Of a stretch of 21,598 nucleotides of DNA, positions 1 to 16,245 are shown in pieces. Source of the stretch: a virus. The stretch covers positions 1 through 21,598 of the IMG/VR virus record IMGVR_UViG_3300025323_000028. One strand, 5' to 3'. The notes under the pieces are model-generated. The model did not search any database and was not told the origin of the DNA. It saw only the letters and a list, made by a program, of their open reading frames with translations. Each line of letters begins with the position of its first letter. Position 1 is the first letter of the stretch. The translations under genes were made by a program, and so were the position numbers.

Positions 1-1533
1 GACACCGAGGATCGGCAAGTGAGATCCCTTGCCGACCAGCTCTCCGAGTTGCGCGAGCTTGCCAAAAAGGAACAACTGAATGTTGTGGATGTATTCATAG
101 AAAAACAAACTGCCAAAACTCCAGGTAGGCCTGTTTTTGCTGAAATGATAGAGCGTATTGAGAAGGGTGAGGCTAATGGAATTCTCGCTTGGCATCCAGA
201 TAGGCTCGCTCGCAACTCGGTGGATGGTGGAAGGATCATCTACATGGTGGATACTGGCACCATCACCGACCTCAAGTTTCCAACTTTTTGGTTCGACGCT
301 ACGCCTCAAGGCAAATTTATGCTTTCTGTTTCTTTTTCGCAGAGCAAGTATTATGTTGATAACCTATCAGAAAATATAAAACGAGGACATCGACAAAAAC
401 TCAAAAATGGAATTTGGCCTCAAAAGGCACCACTCGGATATTTGAATGATAAGGTCACCAAAAATATCACCATTGATACCGAGAAAGCACCGCTCGTAGT
501 AAAAACCTTTGAGGCATATGCGACTGGCAATTTCACGTTTGCTCAAGTCCGCCAGAAAATTAATGATCTTGGACTCAAAGGTACTGGCGATGGTGTGCTT
601 GCTGTTTCTAACTTTCAGTACCTTTTGAAAAATCCCTTTTATCATGGCCTCATTCGATATGGTGGAGAATTCTATGAGGGTAAACACCCACCGATTATTT
701 CAAAGAAACTTTTTGATGATGTGCAGGAAGTAATGACACGAAAATCCAAACCTCATAGCAAAGGATTGAAACCATACGTATACCGTGGTTTATTTCACTG
801 TGGCGAGTGTGGGTGCTTCATTACTACTGAACAACAAAAAGGTCATAACTATTTGCGATGTACGAAGAGAAAAGGGGTTTGTTCGCAAAAATATGTTCGC
901 GAGGAAATCATCACTGCCAAAATGCAGGAGGAATTGAGAAAATATTCTTTAGCAGATGAAGTGGCGGACTGGCTGATTGCAGAGGTTGAGAAGGATAGTG
1001 TGACAGACAGCGCATCGTCGGGCATTCAGATTGGAAAAGTGAACAACGAGATCGCCATCATTGATGTGAAGCTCGACAAACTGATGACGGCATATCTTGA
1101 GAACGCTCTCACGCTTACAGAATATCAAGAAACTAAAAACAAATTGGTGACAGAGAAGCACGCCCTTAAAGACAAACTGAGTGCTTTTGAGCGATCTGCA
1201 ACAATTCGGTTCGAACCAGTCGTTAATTTCCTAAACGACTGTAAACAAGCCACTATTGTGGCAGAGAGCAACGATCCGACAAAAATTCGTGCACAAATTG
1301 AAAAAGTCGGTTCGAACCCACTCGTCCGCGACCGCACCCTCGTTTTTTCCGCACGTTCCCCGTGGATTTTTCTTTCAAAAATTCCCAAAAACGCCAACAA
1401 AGATGCGGGCGGGGCGGAAGGGGGGTTTCAGGGGGGAATTCCGCCCCGCCCTCCACATTCTGCGATTCTTTCTCCATTTTCTGCAGATTCTGAATTTTGC
1501 GCGAAATTGCGGTGGCGATTTCCGGAAGTTTGA
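1..1533 (+). CDS. Large serine recombinase (integrase), 5'-truncated by window edge
   Basis: Site-specific DNA integrase/resolvase. The frame is open to base 1 and the N-terminal catalytic Ser region lies outside the window. Counting from the GTG at 19: the rest of the resolvase fold with WHPDRLARN (58-66) and the helix-E-like GKFMLSVSFSQSKYYVDNLSENIKRG region split around 98-123; a Recombinase domain about 135-240; a zinc ribbon with C261, C264, C281 and C288 (GLFHCGECGCF); and a coiled coil about 335-395. This is the architecture of phiC31/TP901-type integrases. From about residue 445 the protein turns Gly/Pro-rich and unlike a folded domain, coinciding with a GC-rich palindrome, so the natural C-terminus may be run-on coding. 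It converges on the membrane protein gene at 1657-2202. Likely the phage integrase, although a separate element abutting the phage cannot be excluded. The CPR-like style is recognised by eye only. Confidence 0.93.
   Translation, partial: DTEDRQVRSLADQLSELRELAKKEQLNVVDVFIEKQTAKTPGRPVFAEMIERIEKGEANGILAWHPDRLARNSVDGGRIIYMVDTGTITDLKFPTFWFDATPQGKFMLSVSFSQSKYYVDNLSENIKRGHRQKLKNGIWPQKAPLGYLNDKVTKNITIDTEKAPLVVKTFEAYATGNFTFAQVRQKINDLGLKGTGDGVLAVSNFQYLLKNPFYHGLIRYGGEFYEGKHPPIISKKLFDDVQEVMTRKSKPHSKGLKPYVYRGLFHCGECGCFITTEQQKGHNYLRCTKRKGVCSQKYVREEIITAKMQEELRKYSLADEVADWLIAEVEKDSVTDSASSGIQIGKVNNEIAIIDVKLDKLMTAYLENALTLTEYQETKNKLVTEKHALKDKLSAFERSATIRFEPVVNFLNDCKQATIVAESNDPTKIRAQIEKVGSNPLVRDRTLVFSARSPWIFLSKIPKNANKDAGGAEGGFQGGIPPRPPHSAILSPFSADSEFCAKLRWRFPEV
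1407..1451. repeat. 13-bp perfect GC-rich inverted repeat with overlapping G-quadruplex motif
   Basis: GGGCGGGGCGGAA at 1407-1419 is the exact reverse complement of TTCCGCCCCGCCC at 1439-1451, with a 19-base loop. The plus strand from 1407 to 1436 also has G-tracts of 3, 4, 6 and 6 separated by 1, 5 and 5 bases, which satisfies the usual G-quadruplex rule. The two folds compete for the same bases. It lies inside the end of the recombinase frame. No T-tract follows on either strand, so it does not look like a standard terminator. Confidence 0.8.
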
Positions 1534-3283: not shown

Positions 3284-6200
3284 TTATTTCGGCACATATA
3301 CCGAGTCGAATCTGTTGATGAGACCTCTACCTTCCAATTTTTCCTCGATTCGGTCTTGGATATCTCGATCACGCCAGAACTTTTCTTTTTCCATGTCGAC
3401 TGATTTTGCTTTTGCACCGACAAGCCCGTACAAAAATTTCACGACTCCTGATGTGTTGTCATCGGAGAGTTTTCCGGCCGTGGTGTAGAATCTCCCCAAC
3501 GCAGTGTTTAAGAAGTGGAGTTTATAAGCATTCGCTCGATAGCTAACATTTCCGCTTTTATCTTTGTGTTCGCTGACCTCTAACCAATCACGCAATCCGG
3601 GAACGGCATTCACGAACGGATAGACACGGCTTCCTTCTTTGATTGGCTCACCGGTGAATAGGTTCTGTCCGGTGGCCGCCTCAATCGGATATTTCAGGAT
3701 CGGTGATAATTCGCCAACCATGCTGGCCAATGTTCGTTGTGGGCTTCCTTTATAAAGGCGGTTTATATCCTCGACCGGCAGACCTAAACCGTAGAGGTAT
3801 TGCGAGAATCCGTTTTTTTCGCCAAGTCGGACCGGCAATCCCTCTCGCATGTACGGAGGTAAATATTGGAATTCCTCTTTGGCTTTTTCTTTGTCGACTT
3901 GTAGATTGTCTACAAATTTACCGAGAGAGGCGTACTTACCGGGTTGCTTTACTATTTGCTCGAGCTGAAGTGGAATGTTGCCACGAGTCCATCGGTAAAA
4001 TGGCAACAGTCGCTTCATAATGTTTTGCTCGAAAGGTGCGAGTGCTTCCGGTGCGTAGTCGAAGTGGAATTGGAATACCGATTTCGCGGCTTGCTCTGGT
4101 GCATCGCCTTTGACTAAGCGATCCACAAATAGAGGCAGACGCAATCGGTTCTCGGTAATCTCCATTGCATTTTTAGGCAAATCCATAAGTTTGCCGACAG
4201 CACCTTTATTGACATCTTTTTCAACCTCACGCATTACATCCAAGTAACCGGGCTGTCCTACTACTCCCAACTTTTCGGCAATTTCTTTTATTTGCTGGTA
4301 GGTGTATTTCGTACCCAGTTTGGTTGTGATCGTTCCTTTGACTCCTCGAGCAATCTGATCGCCCTGGAGATATCGAGCAGGGTTTTTGACCCCGGCTATA
4401 AAGTTATTGAAAATTCCACCAATTGAATTTCGGACATGGAATGCAGGAAACCATCCGGTCACTGATCCTTTCCAGAATCCGAGAGCTTTGTCGTAGATTT
4501 TAAGGAATCCCTTTGTCGCTTCATCGCTCGTCAGTACCTTATAAGTTTCCTCGACATGCTTCACGATCTGCTCTGGCAAAAGCACGCCCTTAAGTTGAGG
4601 TACGGTACTTTCGATATACCGCATTCCATTGTCGAAGATTGGTTTTGCAGTCTCTTTTTTCACCATCTGTCCACTGATCGGATGTTTGTGTTCCTTGGTG
4701 ACCATTTCGGCTTGCTTCCCGAATTGCTTCCCGACATCGGTCAGGAAATCATAAGTATTCACGGCTTTTATGTGTTCGGCTTTGCGAGCACCAAACGCTT
4801 TGAATGCGTCTTGCTCAAAGAGCTTCACGCCGTGAGTTTTGCGGAAGTAACTATTGATATTTACGAGCGTATCATCGAGTGTTCGAGTTTTTGCGAACGG
4901 AGTGCTTACTCTCGTCTTTTGCAAAAGCTCTTGTGCGACATCACTATTATTTTGTAAGAACTCCCGACCCTCTGGTGTCAGGTAGTGGCGAAGATAATCT
5001 GGCAGAGTGTAGTCGAGGAGACCCCTTTCTTTTTCTTTAGTGGCAAAAGTTTTGTGTTGATCTCTTATAAAGTCAGTAATTTCATTTATAACCTTGTTGC
5101 CAGCTTGAGCAGTATCATCATTAACTTTCATTATTCCGTTCCAATAAGGCTTCGGAACTTTCACGGCCGTTCCGGAATATAGACGACCTTGATCCTTTCG
5201 GCCGGTATATAGCATCGCATCAAGTAATTCATCGCCTTGGCTTTCCGGCATTATGAAGTATTGGACTTTTCCTTTCTTGATAACTATTGGACTTGGAAGA
5301 CCTCCAGCATTTTTAAACTTCATTGAGCCGTCTTTAACTTTTACAAAAACATCAACATCGTTCGGTTTTAATTTCCCCTCAACGGACGAACCGAACACTT
5401 TCATGTCTACTATATTGTTGCGATCTACTCCTTTAATGTCGCCAAGATCAACACCCTTAACCATATCCTTGATTGGTTCAAGAGCTCTCGGCAAAGGTAT
5501 TTGAGGTTTAGGTACATTCTCAAGGATTTTTCCGACTTCAATTCCGGCTTTATCTCCCAATTCTTTTTTGGCAGTTTTCCCCAAAGCGGATACTTCCTCA
5601 ACAGCTTTGCCAACTTCCGATCTTGTTGCTTTGCTGAATGCAGAAAATTTATCGACATAGTCCTCGCCGATTCGTCCCGGCAATTCTTTGATGCTTTTAA
5701 ATGGCACGAATGCTTTACCAGCTAGGTCTTTTGCACCCTCGTACAATTTTCCGACTACAGGAGTTTTTTCAGCGAGCCAGTCTACCGCCTTGAATGGTGC
5801 AGTCACGGCCGATCGTGGCAGTATTTGTTTGCCAGCGAATTTCAAACCGCCCTTTGCGAGAAACTTTTCGCCACCCTCTGCGAGTACCTTTTCGGCGAGC
5901 ATCTTTCTTGCACCTTGTTCACCGACTTCAAGAATCGACTTCTTAAGCAGTGATGTTCCGGTCTTACTCAACACCACCGTGCCAGCTTTGGTTGCGAGTT
6001 TTGCGCCAGCTCCGTAACCAAAACTTAGATAAGTTGTTGGATCAAGTAGTATGTCTGCAATAAATCCACCGACCTTGCTTTTGATACCGAGTGCTTCAGA
6101 TGGTTGGATATGTTCTTTAATTCCGGCCTTGATTCCTTTTCCACTTATAAGACCGCCAACGGCATATCCTCCGGTGTTGAGTACATGGAGAATTTTTTGT

Positions 6201-6460
6201 AGTGTTGATTCCTTGGGTTGAGTGGAGGATACATCCACATTATTTTGCAAAGCAAAATCTCGCAGTCCCTCGACTGTTGTCACATTCGGTTTTCCGGCCG
6301 TTTTCTCTACCTCGGTCGTCACAAACTTTCCCTCGGCATTTTTTTGATACTTTACTGCGGTACCGGCCGATGATGGTTTTGATGTCGTGAGTGGAGGAGA
6401 GACCGGCGCAGAACCGGTATTTATGTATTTTCCTGTTTTAGGGTCTTTAGTGTAAGCCAT
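3284..6460 (-). CDS. Large internal virion (ejection) protein with nucleotidyltransferase signature
   Basis: 1058 aa, the largest protein here; no full-length family recognised. Regions: a low-complexity basic start (1-60); a Gly/Ala-rich, helical, possibly membrane-active part (95-260); a pol-beta type NTase signature F356-G357-S358-x9-D368-V-D370-V, matching hG[GS]x9-13Dh[DE]h; then a long helical part with WFPAFHVRNSIGGIFNN (670-686) and FDYAPEALAPFEQ...LLPFYRWTRGNIPLQ (800-832). The latter two patterns recur in very large phage and mobile-element 'polyvalent' proteins thought to be packaged and injected with DNA. The third acidic residue expected on the next NTase strand is not evident (GKVQYFIM at 397-404), so activity is uncertain. 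Location after the adaptor/nozzle and LysM genes and before lysis fits an internal core or ejection protein, like T7 gp15/gp16. It lacks the long coiled coil of a tape measure. Confidence 0.6.
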   Translation of the reverse strand: MAYTKDPKTGKYINTGSAPVSPPLTTSKPSSAGTAVKYQKNAEGKFVTTEVEKTAGKPNVTTVEGLRDFALQNNVDVSSTQPKESTLQKILHVLNTGGYAVGGLISGKGIKAGIKEHIQPSEALGIKSKVGGFIADILLDPTTYLSFGYGAGAKLATKAGTVVLSKTGTSLLKKSILEVGEQGARKMLAEKVLAEGGEKFLAKGGLKFAGKQILPRSAVTAPFKAVDWLAEKTPVVGKLYEGAKDLAGKAFVPFKSIKELPGRIGEDYVDKFSAFSKATRSEVGKAVEEVSALGKTAKKELGDKAGIEVGKILENVPKPQIPLPRALEPIKDMVKGVDLGDIKGVDRNNIVDMKVFGSSVEGKLKPNDVDVFVKVKDGSMKFKNAGGLPSPIVIKKGKVQYFIMPESQGDELLDAMLYTGRKDQGRLYSGTAVKVPKPYWNGIMKVNDDTAQAGNKVINEITDFIRDQHKTFATKEKERGLLDYTLPDYLRHYLTPEGREFLQNNSDVAQELLQKTRVSTPFAKTRTLDDTLVNINSYFRKTHGVKLFEQDAFKAFGARKAEHIKAVNTYDFLTDVGKQFGKQAEMVTKEHKHPISGQMVKKETAKPIFDNGMRYIESTVPQLKGVLLPEQIVKHVEETYKVLTSDEATKGFLKIYDKALGFWKGSVTGWFPAFHVRNSIGGIFNNFIAGVKNPARYLQGDQIARGVKGTITTKLGTKYTYQQIKEIAEKLGVVGQPGYLDVMREVEKDVNKGAVGKLMDLPKNAMEITENRLRLPLFVDRLVKGDAPEQAAKSVFQFHFDYAPEALAPFEQNIMKRLLPFYRWTRGNIPLQLEQIVKQPGKYASLGKFVDNLQVDKEKAKEEFQYLPPYMREGLPVRLGEKNGFSQYLYGLGLPVEDINRLYKGSPQRTLASMVGELSPILKYPIEAATGQNLFTGEPIKEGSRVYPFVNAVPGLRDWLEVSEHKDKSGNVSYRANAYKLHFLNTALGRFYTTAGKLSDDNTSGVVKFLYGLVGAKAKSVDMEKEKFWRDRDIQDRIEEKLEGRGLINRFDSVYVPK

Positions 6461-6466
6461 AGCATT

Positions 6467-7810
6467 TTAATTTCCGATACCGAAGAGTCCTTTGAAGAAG
6501 TTTTTGCTGGTGTTAAATCCTGACTTCGCAATGTTCGGTATCTTTTGTGTGAATACATCTTTGACCCCAGCACCAAAATCTTGAGCGGTTATCTTTGGCT
6601 GACTTGATTTCAACGCTTGAGCCGCCACCGCATCGGCTTGCTGTTGTGCGTTCGCTTCAGAAATAATCTGATCTCGTTTCTGAAGGACTTGCGCTCGGAT
6701 GTTTTGAGGTACATTACTTGCGGTGAAGTTTGGGTTATTTAGAAGTTCAAGTGCGTAGGCTTCCACATCACTTGCCGAACCTCCGGCATCTGATCCGCTA
6801 CCGGTCGTTTTCTTTGTACCAGTTACTTTCGTACCGGCGATATCAAGCACCGTTCCAGCTGGTGTGTCGTTGGCGAGACCGGCAAGTTTAATCGCTCGAT
6901 CAATAACATCTTGAGCATCTTTCTTTTCCTGCTCTTTGCCGTATTTGGCGGAGTCAATAATGTTGGTGACATCTTTTTCAGAAGCACCGAATACTTGACT
7001 CAATAAATCACCCAGCACGCCGTATTGATCCTTTTGGAATCCGAGAGTTTTTTCAGCCACCGTTAATGGCAAAGTCGAATCCTCGTATTGCATTCCGGCA
7101 ATTTCTTTTGCCGAAGTTTCGGCAGTACCCATTTGAGTGGCAAGTTTATTTCTTTCATTGAGTAGTTTTCTGTATTCATCTATAAGTGGTTGTTTTTCTG
7201 AAGCGACCAATCTTTGAGTTTGGCTTTCTGTTACCAGACCATTGCTTGCAACGGTTCGGTCTCTGATATCTTTTTCCGAACTATTGATTGACTCCTCCAT
7301 TGTGGCCAATCGATTGTCCAAGCTTTGCAGGTTTGTCTGCATTGTATCGAGCCCTCGCTTAGTTCTTTCTTGTTGGTAGATGTCTGACTTTTTAGGCAAA
7401 TTCTTTAGAGTATCGAGGTAGGAGGTCTGACTGTCTTGCATGCTTTTTAGGGTGGAATCAAGGCCTAAGTCGGACCGGTATTGTTTAAGCAAAGAAGTGT
7501 TAGAAGGCACTTCAGTCCCATACAGGGTGCTTTTGGCTGGCACAGAGCTTGTCCCCGGGCTCGAATTTTGGGCAACGGGTGGTGTTACTGTCGAAGAAGG
7601 TGTCACGGTGGGACTTGGGCTCGGAACGCTCGCCTTAGGGGCAACAACGGGTGAAGCCGGAATTCCGGGTAAATTCAAAGCTGATCCGGCATATATCAGG
7701 TTCGGATTCTTGATCGTTGGATTTGCTTTTAGTAAGGCATCCAGCGTGGTGCCTTGTTGTTTGGCGATTCCCGATAAGGTTTGACCTTTTTGGATTGTTA
7801 TCGTTGCCAT
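6467..7810 (-). CDS. LysM-domain virion protein
   Basis: A 447-aa protein. Residues 3-48 form one LysM domain (QKGQTLSGIAKQQGTTLDAL, then NLIYAGSALNLPG), which binds GlcNAc-containing peptidoglycan. A Pro/Ser/Thr-rich linker spans about 50-105. A strongly helical, coiled-coil-prone segment follows at 105-235, then mixed helical sequence with a Gly/Ser-rich patch near 337-348. There is no signal peptide and no catalytic wall domain. Lying between the nozzle candidate and the giant internal protein, it is most likely a virion or ejection protein that docks on the cell wall during entry. The start follows TTAAAAACCTATG. The family of the C-terminal region is not recognised. Confidence 0.7.
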   Translation of the reverse strand: MATITIQKGQTLSGIAKQQGTTLDALLKANPTIKNPNLIYAGSALNLPGIPASPVVAPKASVPSPSPTVTPSSTVTPPVAQNSSPGTSSVPAKSTLYGTEVPSNTSLLKQYRSDLGLDSTLKSMQDSQTSYLDTLKNLPKKSDIYQQERTKRGLDTMQTNLQSLDNRLATMEESINSSEKDIRDRTVASNGLVTESQTQRLVASEKQPLIDEYRKLLNERNKLATQMGTAETSAKEIAGMQYEDSTLPLTVAEKTLGFQKDQYGVLGDLLSQVFGASEKDVTNIIDSAKYGKEQEKKDAQDVIDRAIKLAGLANDTPAGTVLDIAGTKVTGTKKTTGSGSDAGGSASDVEAYALELLNNPNFTASNVPQNIRAQVLQKRDQIISEANAQQQADAVAAQALKSSQPKITAQDFGAGVKDVFTQKIPNIAKSGFNTSKNFFKGLFGIGN

Positions 7811-9923: not shown

Positions 9924-10556
9924 TTATACGAGACTGCTTCTTGGAATTTCCGCTTGATCCGAAGCCGAGGCCATTCTGGCCAGCTCTTGATCACGCCACT
10001 TTCCAATCATAGTTCTCTCGAAGTTACTTTCGGCTTGTCGTTCCAGCTCGGTGTCACCCTGCTGGTTGTAGTACATTTTCTTGCCCCATTCGACATGGGA
10101 TTGATGGTAGAGTTTCTCGACCTCTGGTTCGTCATTGTCGGATGCAAAATCATCAGATATTCGGACAAAGACAAACCTCATGGTGTTGCCGTCGGCAGTT
10201 GGTGTGGCTACTGGGTAAAAATAACCTCCCAGCATATACACCGCATGGCCACCAAATTTATCTCTGTCTCGGAAGTCGATCAGTTTATAAGGTGTTTTGT
10301 CCGTTCCAATTCTGAGTTCGATAAACGCACGGTAATTTTCCGGTACGGGATATTTCTCTTGATTGGCTGTGGTTGTGAATGGTTGCTCTGTTTTGAGATA
10401 ATCCCAATAATCAAAGGTTTGATCCCGATCTTCCGGCGGTCTCCAACTCTGAACCTTTTCATCGGCTCTCTGTATCCATGTGTTTAACAATGAAGAGTCG
10501 ACTGTTTGGTCATCGACCTCGTTTTTAATTGCTGTTTTTATTTCGCCTCTGGTCAT
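9924..10556 (-). CDS. Head-tail adaptor (gp6 / T7 gp11 / P22 gp4-like)
   Basis: A 210-aa protein. It begins with a helical segment of the form TRGEIKTAIKNEVDD...SSLLNTWIQRADEKVQSW (2-38), typical of ring-forming connector proteins that bind below the portal. A beta-rich middle follows (KYPVPENYRAFIELRIG, PYKLIDFRDRDKF), then a C-terminal helix-rich end (about 145-200, YHQSHVEWGKKMYYNQ). That helix-beta-helix layout is the one of T7 gp11/P22 gp4 family adaptors. It is followed by the nozzle candidate, as in podoviruses. The start follows CTAAAACCTATG. Confidence 0.65.
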   Translation of the reverse strand: MTRGEIKTAIKNEVDDQTVDSSLLNTWIQRADEKVQSWRPPEDRDQTFDYWDYLKTEQPFTTTANQEKYPVPENYRAFIELRIGTDKTPYKLIDFRDRDKFGGHAVYMLGGYFYPVATPTADGNTMRFVFVRISDDFASDNDEPEVEKLYHQSHVEWGKKMYYNQQGDTELERQAESNFERTMIGKWRDQELARMASASDQAEIPRSSLV

Positions 10557-10561
10557 AGGTT

Positions 10562-10876
10562 TTAGATGTCATCACGAATAATGATTGATGTTTGTTTGTA
10601 TCCGGTTTGAATTTTTCCATCAGGGAATGTTACTTCGACCTCTCCCAAGTAAGTTCCGACTGTATTGGTATCTGATCCAGACCACAGATATTTGCATTTA
10701 CCCTTGGTTGCATCGGTGATCGTGCAAGTGGTGCCGTTTATTTTGACCGAACCCGATGTCGCATCCTTCATGTAGAATTTAACCGTGCATCCGGTTAGAT
10801 TCACTGGCGAACCGTCTTGAGTCAAATTAAATTCAAGCGGTGGTAAGGTGTCGTTTTGTACGATTTTTATGCTCAT
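10562..10876 (-). CDS. BppU N-terminal-like Ig-fold tail protein
   Basis: A 104-aa beta-sandwich protein. KIVQNDTLPPLEFNLTQDGS (4-23) then PVNLTGCTVKFYMKDATSG, an internal CTITDATKGKCKYLWSGSD and a closing GTYLGEVEVTFPDGKIQT follow the pattern of the N-terminal domain of lactococcal phage baseplate protein BppU. In that family the domain anchors receptor-binding proteins to the virion. Its ATG overlaps the TGA of the upstream 14-residue-repeat protein (ATGA at 10873-10876), suggesting coupled expression and perhaps a shared structure. Only the isolated domain is present. Confidence 0.65.
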   Translation of the reverse strand: MSIKIVQNDTLPPLEFNLTQDGSPVNLTGCTVKFYMKDATSGSVKINGTTCTITDATKGKCKYLWSGSDTNTVGTYLGEVEVTFPDGKIQTGYKQTSIIIRDDI

Positions 10877-12174
10877 AGGTTTATATCTTGTTTATTGCTC
10901 GGCAGATTGATGTTGTTTTTGGCAGTCTGCATCTGTTGGTCTTGCCGAGCAGTTTTGACCTCAATGTTTGTTTTGGCTTTTGTCAGCCCAAGAGTTTCTC
11001 TGGCCGACAGCATCAGGACCGACACTTTGGCGGAAAGCAGTTCAATGGCAATTTTTATTCCCTCGGCAATTTTCCAAATGTCGAATCTATAAGTCCAAGC
11101 TTTTGCTATTAGTCCTCGGATATCTAAGCGGTATGTCCATTGCTTGCCTGTGGTTATCAGAATGTCTAATCGGTAAGTCCACCATTTTGCAATCTTGCTT
11201 AAAATGTCCCAGCAATAGGTTTCTGTTTTAGCTATTAATCCTCTGATATCCAGCACATATCTTTCAATCTTGGCCGTCAGTGTTCTTATGTCGAATTTAT
11301 AAGATTCAAGTTTTGCAATCAGTCCTCGAACATCGAGAACATACTGCATTACTTTGGTTGTCAGGTTCCTAATGTCTAAGAGATAGATTGTCTGTCTCAA
11401 CACGCTAAGCAGTGAATCAAATAAATATTGAGTACTTTTGTTTGCCAAACTTCTGATGTCTAACAAATATCTTTCAAGTTTCGTGGCAAGGTTTCTGATA
11501 TCCAGCGTGTAAGTCCACGCTTTGTTTGCCAATGCTCTGATGTCCAACACATAGGCAGATATTTTGTTGGCGAGATTCCTGACATCAAGTTTGTAGGTCT
11601 CTATTCTGGCCACCACGCTACCGACATCGATCACATAGGCCATTAACTTTTGAGCAATGTTTCTTATATCTAACTTGTAGATTGATTGGCGGATTGCCAA
11701 GAGAAACGAGTCAAATTTGTAGGTGATAGTTTTTCCGAGCGTGATCAGTATGTCGAGTACATAGTTGGTGTCCTTTGGGACAAGGTTGCGAATGTCGAGT
11801 TTATAAATCCTTCCAATCAACGCACCGCCGATAATATCGAGAATGTAAGTCAGAGTTTTTATTGCTCTCTGATAAATATCCAAGATATAAGTTTCGAGTT
11901 TGGTCGCAAGATTGTTGATGTCGAGCTTATAAGCAATCACTCTGACAACGAGTCCGAAAGTATCAATGATGTATGTCTCTGTTTTATCGATCAAAGTTCT
12001 AATGTCGAGGATGTAAGACTTTGCGTGCGATATTGTGATGAAGCTGTCGAATAAATAAACTATTTGTTTGTTTATCAATCCAAACACATCGAGCACATAA
12101 CTCACGGCTTTGGCGATTGGCTTTGAGCCGGTGTTGTTTAATTGGGCAGTGTTGAATTGATAAGAGTTAAACAT
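10873..12174 (-). CDS. Tail protein built of 25 tandem 14-residue YxxD repeats
   Basis: 433 aa; no family recognised. Residues 26-375 are 25 uninterrupted 14-residue units with no insertion or deletion. Tyr is at unit position 1 in all 25 (26, 40, 54 ... 362) and Asp at position 4 in all 25; position 3 is Leu, Phe, Ile or Trp, position 5 mostly Ile/Val, and R-x-L follows at 6-8 in many. A typical unit is YKLDIRNLANKISA. Units 2, 10 and 17 carry FDS in place of LDI. The start, MFNSYQFNTAQLN, resembles phage tail or baseplate protein N-termini; the end (376-433) is polar, Lys/Asn/Gln-rich and non-repetitive. Alternating hydrophobics at positions 1, 3 and 5 favour a beta-solenoid, though 14 also equals two heptads. 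Position between the beta-helix tailspike and the BppU-like gene suggests a fibre or adhesin. Confidence 0.75.
   Translation of the reverse strand: MFNSYQFNTAQLNNTGSKPIAKAVSYVLDVFGLINKQIVYLFDSFITISHAKSYILDIRTLIDKTETYIIDTFGLVVRVIAYKLDINNLATKLETYILDIYQRAIKTLTYILDIIGGALIGRIYKLDIRNLVPKDTNYVLDILITLGKTITYKFDSFLLAIRQSIYKLDIRNIAQKLMAYVIDVGSVVARIETYKLDVRNLANKISAYVLDIRALANKAWTYTLDIRNLATKLERYLLDIRSLANKSTQYLFDSLLSVLRQTIYLLDIRNLTTKVMQYVLDVRGLIAKLESYKFDIRTLTAKIERYVLDIRGLIAKTETYCWDILSKIAKWWTYRLDILITTGKQWTYRLDIRGLIAKAWTYRFDIWKIAEGIKIAIELLSAKVSVLMLSARETLGLTKAKTNIEVKTARQDQQMQTAKNNINLPSNKQDINL
11050..12099 (-). repeat. 25 x 42-bp degenerate coding tandem repeat
   Basis: The DNA counterpart of the 14-residue repeats. 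Each 42-base unit encodes Tyr-x-x-Asp at the same phase, but the nucleotide sequences have diverged strongly (plus-strand variants such as ATGTCTAAC, ATATCCAGC, ATGTCGAGT, ATATCTAAG at the coded L/F-D-I/V). The conservation is therefore at protein level, indicating old duplication with selection on the fold rather than recent slippage. Confidence 0.85.
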
Positions 12175-15021: not shown

Positions 15022-16245
15022 TTAGGCAACGCCCTTAAGCAAAGCGTTCTTTTCGAAGTTGACTCTCTGCAAACCGACTTCGGTTTTGTACTGGTCTACT
15101 TCCTCGTCAGCATCGTTGTCTTGAATGTTAGTTTCGAGAGAAGTGTCTCGACCATTCAAAGGACAATGCTTTAAGGTTGAAAGATCCAATACGACTCCCA
15201 TGCCAGCATACTGATTGTCGAACATCGGATGACGGACAATGTTTAGTGTGCCAAAGGAAGACTGGAACTTGCGAATTTCCACGCCGTAGGTCTTATCGGT
15301 CGGGACGATATACATCTTGCTGGTAGCAAAACCCTCCAAATAGCCGAGGACGGTATTTCCACAGAAGAAGTATTTTTCGCTTGAACCATACTTGAAGGCA
15401 TAGTTCTGCAAGAACGATCGGAATTCAGCTTCGGTTAAAGCAGAACTTGATTCATCTTGCACATTGCCAGCGGAGATGATGGCTTCCAAAACACCTCCGG
15501 ATAAGCGGAGAGGTTTGCCATCGGGACCGGTGACCTCTTTCTTTTCACCGAACCAATATGCACGCTCGATTTTCTTGGCTTGCTCAATACCGTGTTTAGC
15601 ACGCAAGTATTTGAGATCCGCACCCGGGTTACCGGATGGATAAAGCTTCGAAGCGTTCTCGGTTGCAGTGACACCGAATTTGGTTTTGAAGATTTGGGTG
15701 TAGTTGGTGACTTTTACGAGCTTAGTCGTATTGGAATCGCCAGACTTTGATCCTTCCTCAAAAGCTGGACCGATGACTAACAGCCAGTCGTCATCATTGA
15801 TGGCGGCCGCCGCAGTGGCACCGGCTCCACGAGATACGGTGAGTGTGTTCGTGGAATAGTTGATAGTGGTGACACGCATGATTTCACCAGTTCGAGTGTT
15901 TTTAATCAGGTCGAACTTGGAGAAAATTGATGCACCGGGACTATCAACGACAATGTCGGTAGCACCGGCTATGTAGCCACCGCCGTTGTTGATTCGAGCC
16001 CAGACGCCAGAGTACTGATCCTCATATTCAGTAAACTCTGGGTTGTACACGACTCTTTTTTGGAGAGCCATGCCCTTGAATTTGCCACCACCGTCGCCAA
16101 TCTTTCCGATTTGGGTCAAGAAAGCGGTGAGCGGTGATTCGCCTGGTTCAAGGAGAAAAATTTTGTCATCGACATCGGGAATACGCTGTGATTGTTCAAT
16201 CGTCAGCGTATTCCTCGTTCCGATGAGATGGGTTGGTTCAGGCAT
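15022..16245 (-). CDS. Major capsid protein (HK97 fold, SU10/DUF5309 type)
   Basis: A 407-aa shell subunit. It opens with THLIGTRNTLTIEQSQRIPD, then FLLEPGESPLTAFLTQIGK, as in DUF5309/SU10 major capsid proteins. A beta insertion (about 91-158: GGYIAGATDIVVDSPGASIF to DDDWLLVIGPAF) is typical of the group. The middle has KVTNYTQIFKTKFGVT and an EQAKKIERAYWFGEK helix (spine helix region), and the end has EVGLQRVNFEKNALLKGV. There is no protease gene or obvious cleaved N-terminal delta domain, in line with use of a separate scaffold. It lies directly after the scaffold gene and carries the duplicated leader AAAACAAACTTATG. Confidence 0.9.
   Translation of the reverse strand: MPEPTHLIGTRNTLTIEQSQRIPDVDDKIFLLEPGESPLTAFLTQIGKIGDGGGKFKGMALQKRVVYNPEFTEYEDQYSGVWARINNGGGYIAGATDIVVDSPGASIFSKFDLIKNTRTGEIMRVTTINYSTNTLTVSRGAGATAAAAINDDDWLLVIGPAFEEGSKSGDSNTTKLVKVTNYTQIFKTKFGVTATENASKLYPSGNPGADLKYLRAKHGIEQAKKIERAYWFGEKKEVTGPDGKPLRLSGGVLEAIISAGNVQDESSSALTEAEFRSFLQNYAFKYGSSEKYFFCGNTVLGYLEGFATSKMYIVPTDKTYGVEIRKFQSSFGTLNIVRHPMFDNQYAGMGVVLDLSTLKHCPLNGRDTSLETNIQDNDADEEVDQYKTEVGLQRVNFEKNALLKGVA

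Follow-up and report, generated by a model that had tools for sequence, protein, structure and literature searches.

Among the described systems closest to the locus studied here are the polyvalent proteins, a survey of which records pol-beta nucleotidyltransferases (NTases) only for those encoded by conjugative elements (Iyer et al. 2017, PMC5512222). Entry of an enzyme together with the genome is known from head-packaged effectors such as phage T4 Alt (PMC5512222), and the NTases of the Hailong anti-phage system are cited as immune enzymes in PMC12265719. Our literature search found no pol-beta NTases in phage virion proteins, nor polyvalent proteins of Patescibacteria phages. Phages of this bacterial group have received little study, most of them remain uncultured, and no early effector of theirs is known to us.

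The stretch of DNA analysed here, referred to as the window, is the whole of a 21.6-kb IMG/VR virus record. Its gene products include an adaptor and a capsid protein of the SU10 type, a portal, a terminase, an amidase and a serine recombinase, the last of which suggests a temperate lifestyle. A 1058-aa ORF is encoded among the structural genes, in agreement with its earlier reading as a large virion-type protein. The main features are as follows:

1..1533, plus strand: serine recombinase (Pfam PF00239 and PF07508)
3284..6460, minus strand: 1058-aa ORF, large virion (probable ejection) protein with the NTase-like module (ORF call; C-terminal core conserved in homologues)
3965..4003, minus strand: core motif PFYRWTRGNIPLQ, residues 820-832 (conserved core)
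4427..4453, minus strand: core motif WFPAFHVRN, residues 670-678 (conserved core)
6467..7810, minus strand: LysM protein, 447 aa, adjoining the 1058-aa ORF (Pfam PF01476, E 8.4e-12)
9924..10556, minus strand: SU10-type adaptor protein (Pfam PF24175, E 6.9e-16)
15022..16245, minus strand: SU10-type major capsid protein (Pfam PF17236, E 8.7e-40)

Both core motifs, which the sequence-only reading had likened to patterns of very large injected phage proteins, were confirmed in the 1058-aa protein, and the core surrounding them is kept in distant homologues. Large proteins resembling it are encoded in further phage genomes, of which two carry the title Podoviridae, and the protein belongs to temperate SU10-like phages whose hosts are probably the ultra-small Patescibacteria. 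Beyond the NTase-like domain described below, no second domain of the polyvalent-protein catalogue was recognised, a Pfam search at E values up to 0.5 having brought up none of them, LPD and MPTase included; the helical core may be undescribed. Elsewhere in the window, positions 10873-12174 (minus strand) encode a 433-aa protein built from a strict 14-residue repeat, Y-x-[LFIVW]-D-[IVS], with 24 matches spaced mostly 14 residues apart. This protein has no Pfam match up to E 0.5, and the DNA copies of its repeat have diverged, since TRF finds no array at these positions.

As the record carries no host label, we infer the host of the window phage from its relatives; it is probably a member of Patescibacteria, a point that had been missed before. 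In a genome scan, homologues were found in MAGs titled Magasanikbacteria, Vogelbacteria, Yonathbacteria, Nomurabacteria, Paceibacterota and Parcubacteria, and further ones in bins titled only 'bacterium', in one Bacteroidetes bin and in one Bacillota bin (a distant relative), the named homologue records being mostly Patescibacteria. On a 1.5-Mb contig of genome G005 there is a module-less homologue with genes for HisRS, RNase III and a DnaA C-terminal-domain protein in its vicinity, and this neighbourhood supports an integrated prophage; by class, G005 goes with two MAGs titled Parcubacteria group. A 5.4-kb contig binned as Bacteroidetes (L022), with a core 66% identical, is probably misbinned; otherwise the host range is wider.

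Homologues of the 1058-aa protein align throughout bar one block, and it is this block, or slot, that holds the NTase-like module. The features within and around it are given below:

4961..5659, minus strand: recombined tract, residues ~268-500 (nearest to L019/L020 here and to L002/L012 elsewhere)
5126..5515, minus strand: NTase-like module, residues ~316-445, ~130 residues (presence/absence alignment of homologues)
5261..5263, minus strand: Q400 codon, invariant Gln where NTase 2rff has its third catalytic Asp (alignment with 2rff)
5348..5395, minus strand: motif FGSSVEGKLKPNDVDV, residues 356-371, hG[GS]x9DhDh (pattern match and conservation)

Five copies of the module are known (the window, L019, L020, L021 and L029), three of them close to each other. 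It is missing from the 938-aa homologue encoded by L002 (a virus contig of 55.9 kb), which matches the window protein at ~92% identity wherever both align, and a short spacer takes its place both there and in L012-L016 and L018. A different module, alike in L017 and L036 and unrelated to the NTase-like one, occupies the slot of these two. This second module (L017 1-2604, L036 4463-7687) contains VLDG[SA]H[KR]LAG, which is ParB-like by eye; its assignment to ParB/Srx found no support in an hhalign score of 11.0, with a null reaching 26, in a comparison of two sequences with seven ParB sequences. Two distant relatives, L003 and L024, share 63% identity in the C-terminal part and 45% in the N-terminal part, and the ORF of L003 at 3718-7731 carries ~200 extra residues (~427-626) upstream of the conserved core that are missing in L024. 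From the alignments, this block is taken to sit in the same slot; its reading by eye as an ADP-ribosyltransferase found no Pfam or PDB support and was dropped. No close homologues of the NTase-like module alone were confirmed in IMG/VR, the phage collection or plasmids, and a search of 380 genomes of the phylum with the module profile returned only a known copy and an unrelated 381-aa protein taken as chance (L030, E 1.1e-5), another candidate (L028, E 0.065) being likewise set aside. One Parcubacteria MAG (G008) holds two copies of the module-bearing protein, on contigs C22 and C4 (L026, L029), which suggests either two related prophages or a binning mix. Judged from these comparisons, the domain is a recent, exchangeable insert, which had been overlooked in the sequence-only reading.

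Outside the recombined tract, the nucleotides of the window are ~88% identical to L002/L012 and ~70% to L019/L020, whereas inside it, from residue ~268 to ~500, they are ~87% identical to L019/L020 and about 50-79% identical to L002/L012 where these can be aligned. We read this nucleotide mosaic as recombination, through which the window's copy of the module was acquired across residues ~268-500. In NG86 estimates, in which dS above 1 is near saturation, comparison of the module in the window with that of L020 gave a dN of 0.0037 and a dS of 1.0, and comparison with L021 gave 0.13 and 1.8, respectively; by these values selection on the module is strongly purifying.

The module very probably has the NTase fold, a conclusion that draws on several weak but agreeing tests together, no single sequence test being significant alone. 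When all of Pfam was searched, all five copies matched Polbeta (best E 0.0018), NTP_transf_2 (0.0087) and DUF6932 (0.014), all of these matches lying under the curated cut-offs; DUF6932, described by Pfam as a family of unknown function, is presumably linked to NTases. Two of the members also matched the T7-like gp67 phage model (E 0.091), and the NCBIfam matches were to aminoglycoside nucleotidyltransferases only. With the L021 module as a phmmer query, NTase 2rff ranks first in the PDB (E 0.1), above SmD1, and the alignment stays collinear all the way from the first strand to the strand of the third acid, where the third Asp of 2rff stands opposite a Gln. Alignment with 21 NTases by hhalign, chosen by a motif filter that favours agreement at the motif, scored 31.3 (P 5e-5), while 60 column shuffles reached 16.9 at most and a ParB profile gave 11.5. 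In PDB profile searches the unrelated proteins SmD1 and desmoglein outrank the NTases, and the PDB sequence ranking alone is therefore not decisive. For an AF2 model of residues 262-512, Foldseek ranks 1-18 in the PDB are all NTases, led by HalB (E 2.7e-3, prob 0.99) and followed by 2rff (E 0.021) and then ANT(4'). Confidence was low in both AF2 models, with a mean pLDDT of 43.5 and 46.5 and values of about 50-71 in the core of the module; the model of the module alone has no sensible structural match, and the VIA Z-scores of 3.6-4.9 lie within the range of common arrangements. The alignment behind the first model took in the L029 copy, and that behind the second was built from the window and its related loci. 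PHROGs holds no family matching the module. A resemblance of the tail of the module to the PolX thumb was considered and set aside; that family is absent from the Pfam matches, and PolX stands low in the VIA list.

The motif FGSSVEGKLKPNDVDV at residues 356-371 is, as first noticed from the letters, an exact fit to hG[GS]x9Dh[DE]h. Since this pattern occurs in 2.4% of shuffles of the 1058-aa protein, the motif by itself is only suggestive, and it is the addition of conservation and profile evidence that carries it far beyond chance: FGSSVEGKLKPNDVD[VI]F, comprising hG[GS] and then DhDh, is kept in five of five module copies, and G357, S358, D368 and D370, whose conservation had been put forward as a check, are invariant in all of them. 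The third acidic residue had been reported as not evident, and its position has now been found, with Q400 standing opposite the Asp of 2rff. All module copies have Gln there, and the later-strand acid required for canonical catalysis is not present. The earlier assignment to the NTases is in this way largely supported, the superfamily fold being favoured by Pfam, NCBIfam, hhalign and Foldseek and the third acid being absent. The earlier interpretation as a whole is partly supported, its injected and active enzyme with tRNA or protein as target being a hypothesis. Some members of the pol-beta NTase fold do without a third catalytic acid; with Gln in all copies, activity is uncertain, and the module is therefore classed as having an NTase-like fold rather than being a canonical NTase enzyme. 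An active divergent transferase and a catalytically dead nucleotide- or nucleic-acid-binding derivative appear to us about equally probable.

The possible absence of catalysis deserves the most weight among the alternatives, and we judge it a serious one, if somewhat short of even. The module would then have a structural role or bind, for instance, nucleotides, RNA or another protein; RsfS, a non-catalytic member of the NTase fold, offers a parallel. Replacement of the third Asp by an invariant Gln agrees with such a role, and RsfS is among the top VIA matches, at a Z under 5 that may mean a common arrangement only. However, G357, S358, D368 and D370 remain invariant at synonymous distances above 1, which would be surprising had metal and nucleotide binding been lost, and E406, D410 and E411, which are invariant in the alignment of module copies, could in principle supply a substitute carboxylate.

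The reading that we favour, and consider rather probable, is that the 1058-aa protein is an internal ejection-type virion protein whose slot-borne NTase-fold cargo acts on a target early. The proposed course of events would be as follows: (i) the 1058-aa protein would be a large internal virion protein of a temperate SU10-like short-tailed Patescibacteria phage, with a cargo slot upstream of its conserved C-terminal core; (ii) the slot would here be loaded with a minimal pol-beta NTase-fold domain, gained by recombination within the gene; (iii) the protein would go into the cell together with the DNA; (iv) the domain would bind nucleotide and metal via G357/S358 and D368/D370; and (v) it would then act on a host or competitor target as infection begins. 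We infer both the entry of the protein into the host with the DNA, by packaging and ejection, and the nucleotide binding and action on the host by its domain. The module may be cargo that is swapped in and out among phages and acts on the host as infection sets in. The more specific proposal, that the hot-swap slot of Patescibacteria phages holds an active non-canonical NTase (DxD plus Gln) modifying a host target or countering nucleotide-signalling defence, we regard as unlikely, and a counter-defence role of the module is speculation.

Ejection itself could be questioned, as the LysM gene adjoins the gene of the 1058-aa protein and the amidase gene is separated from it by one short ORF, so that the protein might instead be a scaffold, tail or lysis-related structural protein with a module that tunes assembly. 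Its size, its place beyond the adaptor and structural genes and its likeness to large phage proteins nevertheless fit ejection proteins, and the presence or absence of a whole module is easier to explain for cargo than for an assembly part, which leaves this explanation somewhat unlikely. It is improbable that the motif is coincidental and the domain another small beta fold, for which Sm-like is the best sequence candidate: one PDB profile search put SmD1 at the top (E 0.015), GSSVEGKL and GKVQYFIMPES align with Sm1/Sm2-like parts of SmD1, and a first AF2 model, of very low confidence, was chemokine-like, but three NTase or NTase-like Pfam families are matched in every member and a Pfam Sm family in none, phmmer with the L021 module places 2rff over SmD1, the hhalign NTase score is well above the shuffles, and Foldseek lists NTases for the better model (262-512).

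Since the slot is conserved, lies in what is probably an ejection protein and shows presence or absence and recombination between phages, it offers a direct route to more cargo domains, whose discovery would proceed by alignment of the backbone and reading out of the contents of the gaps.

Compared with the MNT-type minimal NTase 2rff of Sulfolobus, the module is collinear over ~75 residues, hFGS and DhDh both falling in register, but is one residue shorter between GS and DxD, has Gln for the third Asp and lies inside a 1058-aa virion protein. HalB (9dbj), the NTase of the Hailong system, is the best structural match (68 columns, 22% identity, with a flanked model of low confidence); its PDB chains run to about 215 residues, whereas the module has ~130 residues within a phage protein. 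With T4 Alt the 1058-aa protein shares the proposed delivery mode, entry of an enzyme with the genome, although Alt is an ADP-ribosyltransferase whose injection has been shown, and here injection is a proposal and the fold is NTase-like. The polyvalent proteins (PMC5512222) have in common with it the very large protein of a mobile element, the predicted co-entry with DNA, the interchangeable effector domains and the presence of pol-beta NTases among the catalogued domains; by analogy, the 1058-aa protein may work like a phage-type polyvalent protein. It differs in being a phage structural gene product with no other catalogued domain detected and no third acid, and is not filed as a phage-type polyvalent protein because a second catalogued domain was not detected. 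What is new with respect to the survey is a pol-beta NTase-like domain in a phage protein, and its occurrence in a phage virion protein supplies an entry missing from the published table of domains in polyvalent proteins.
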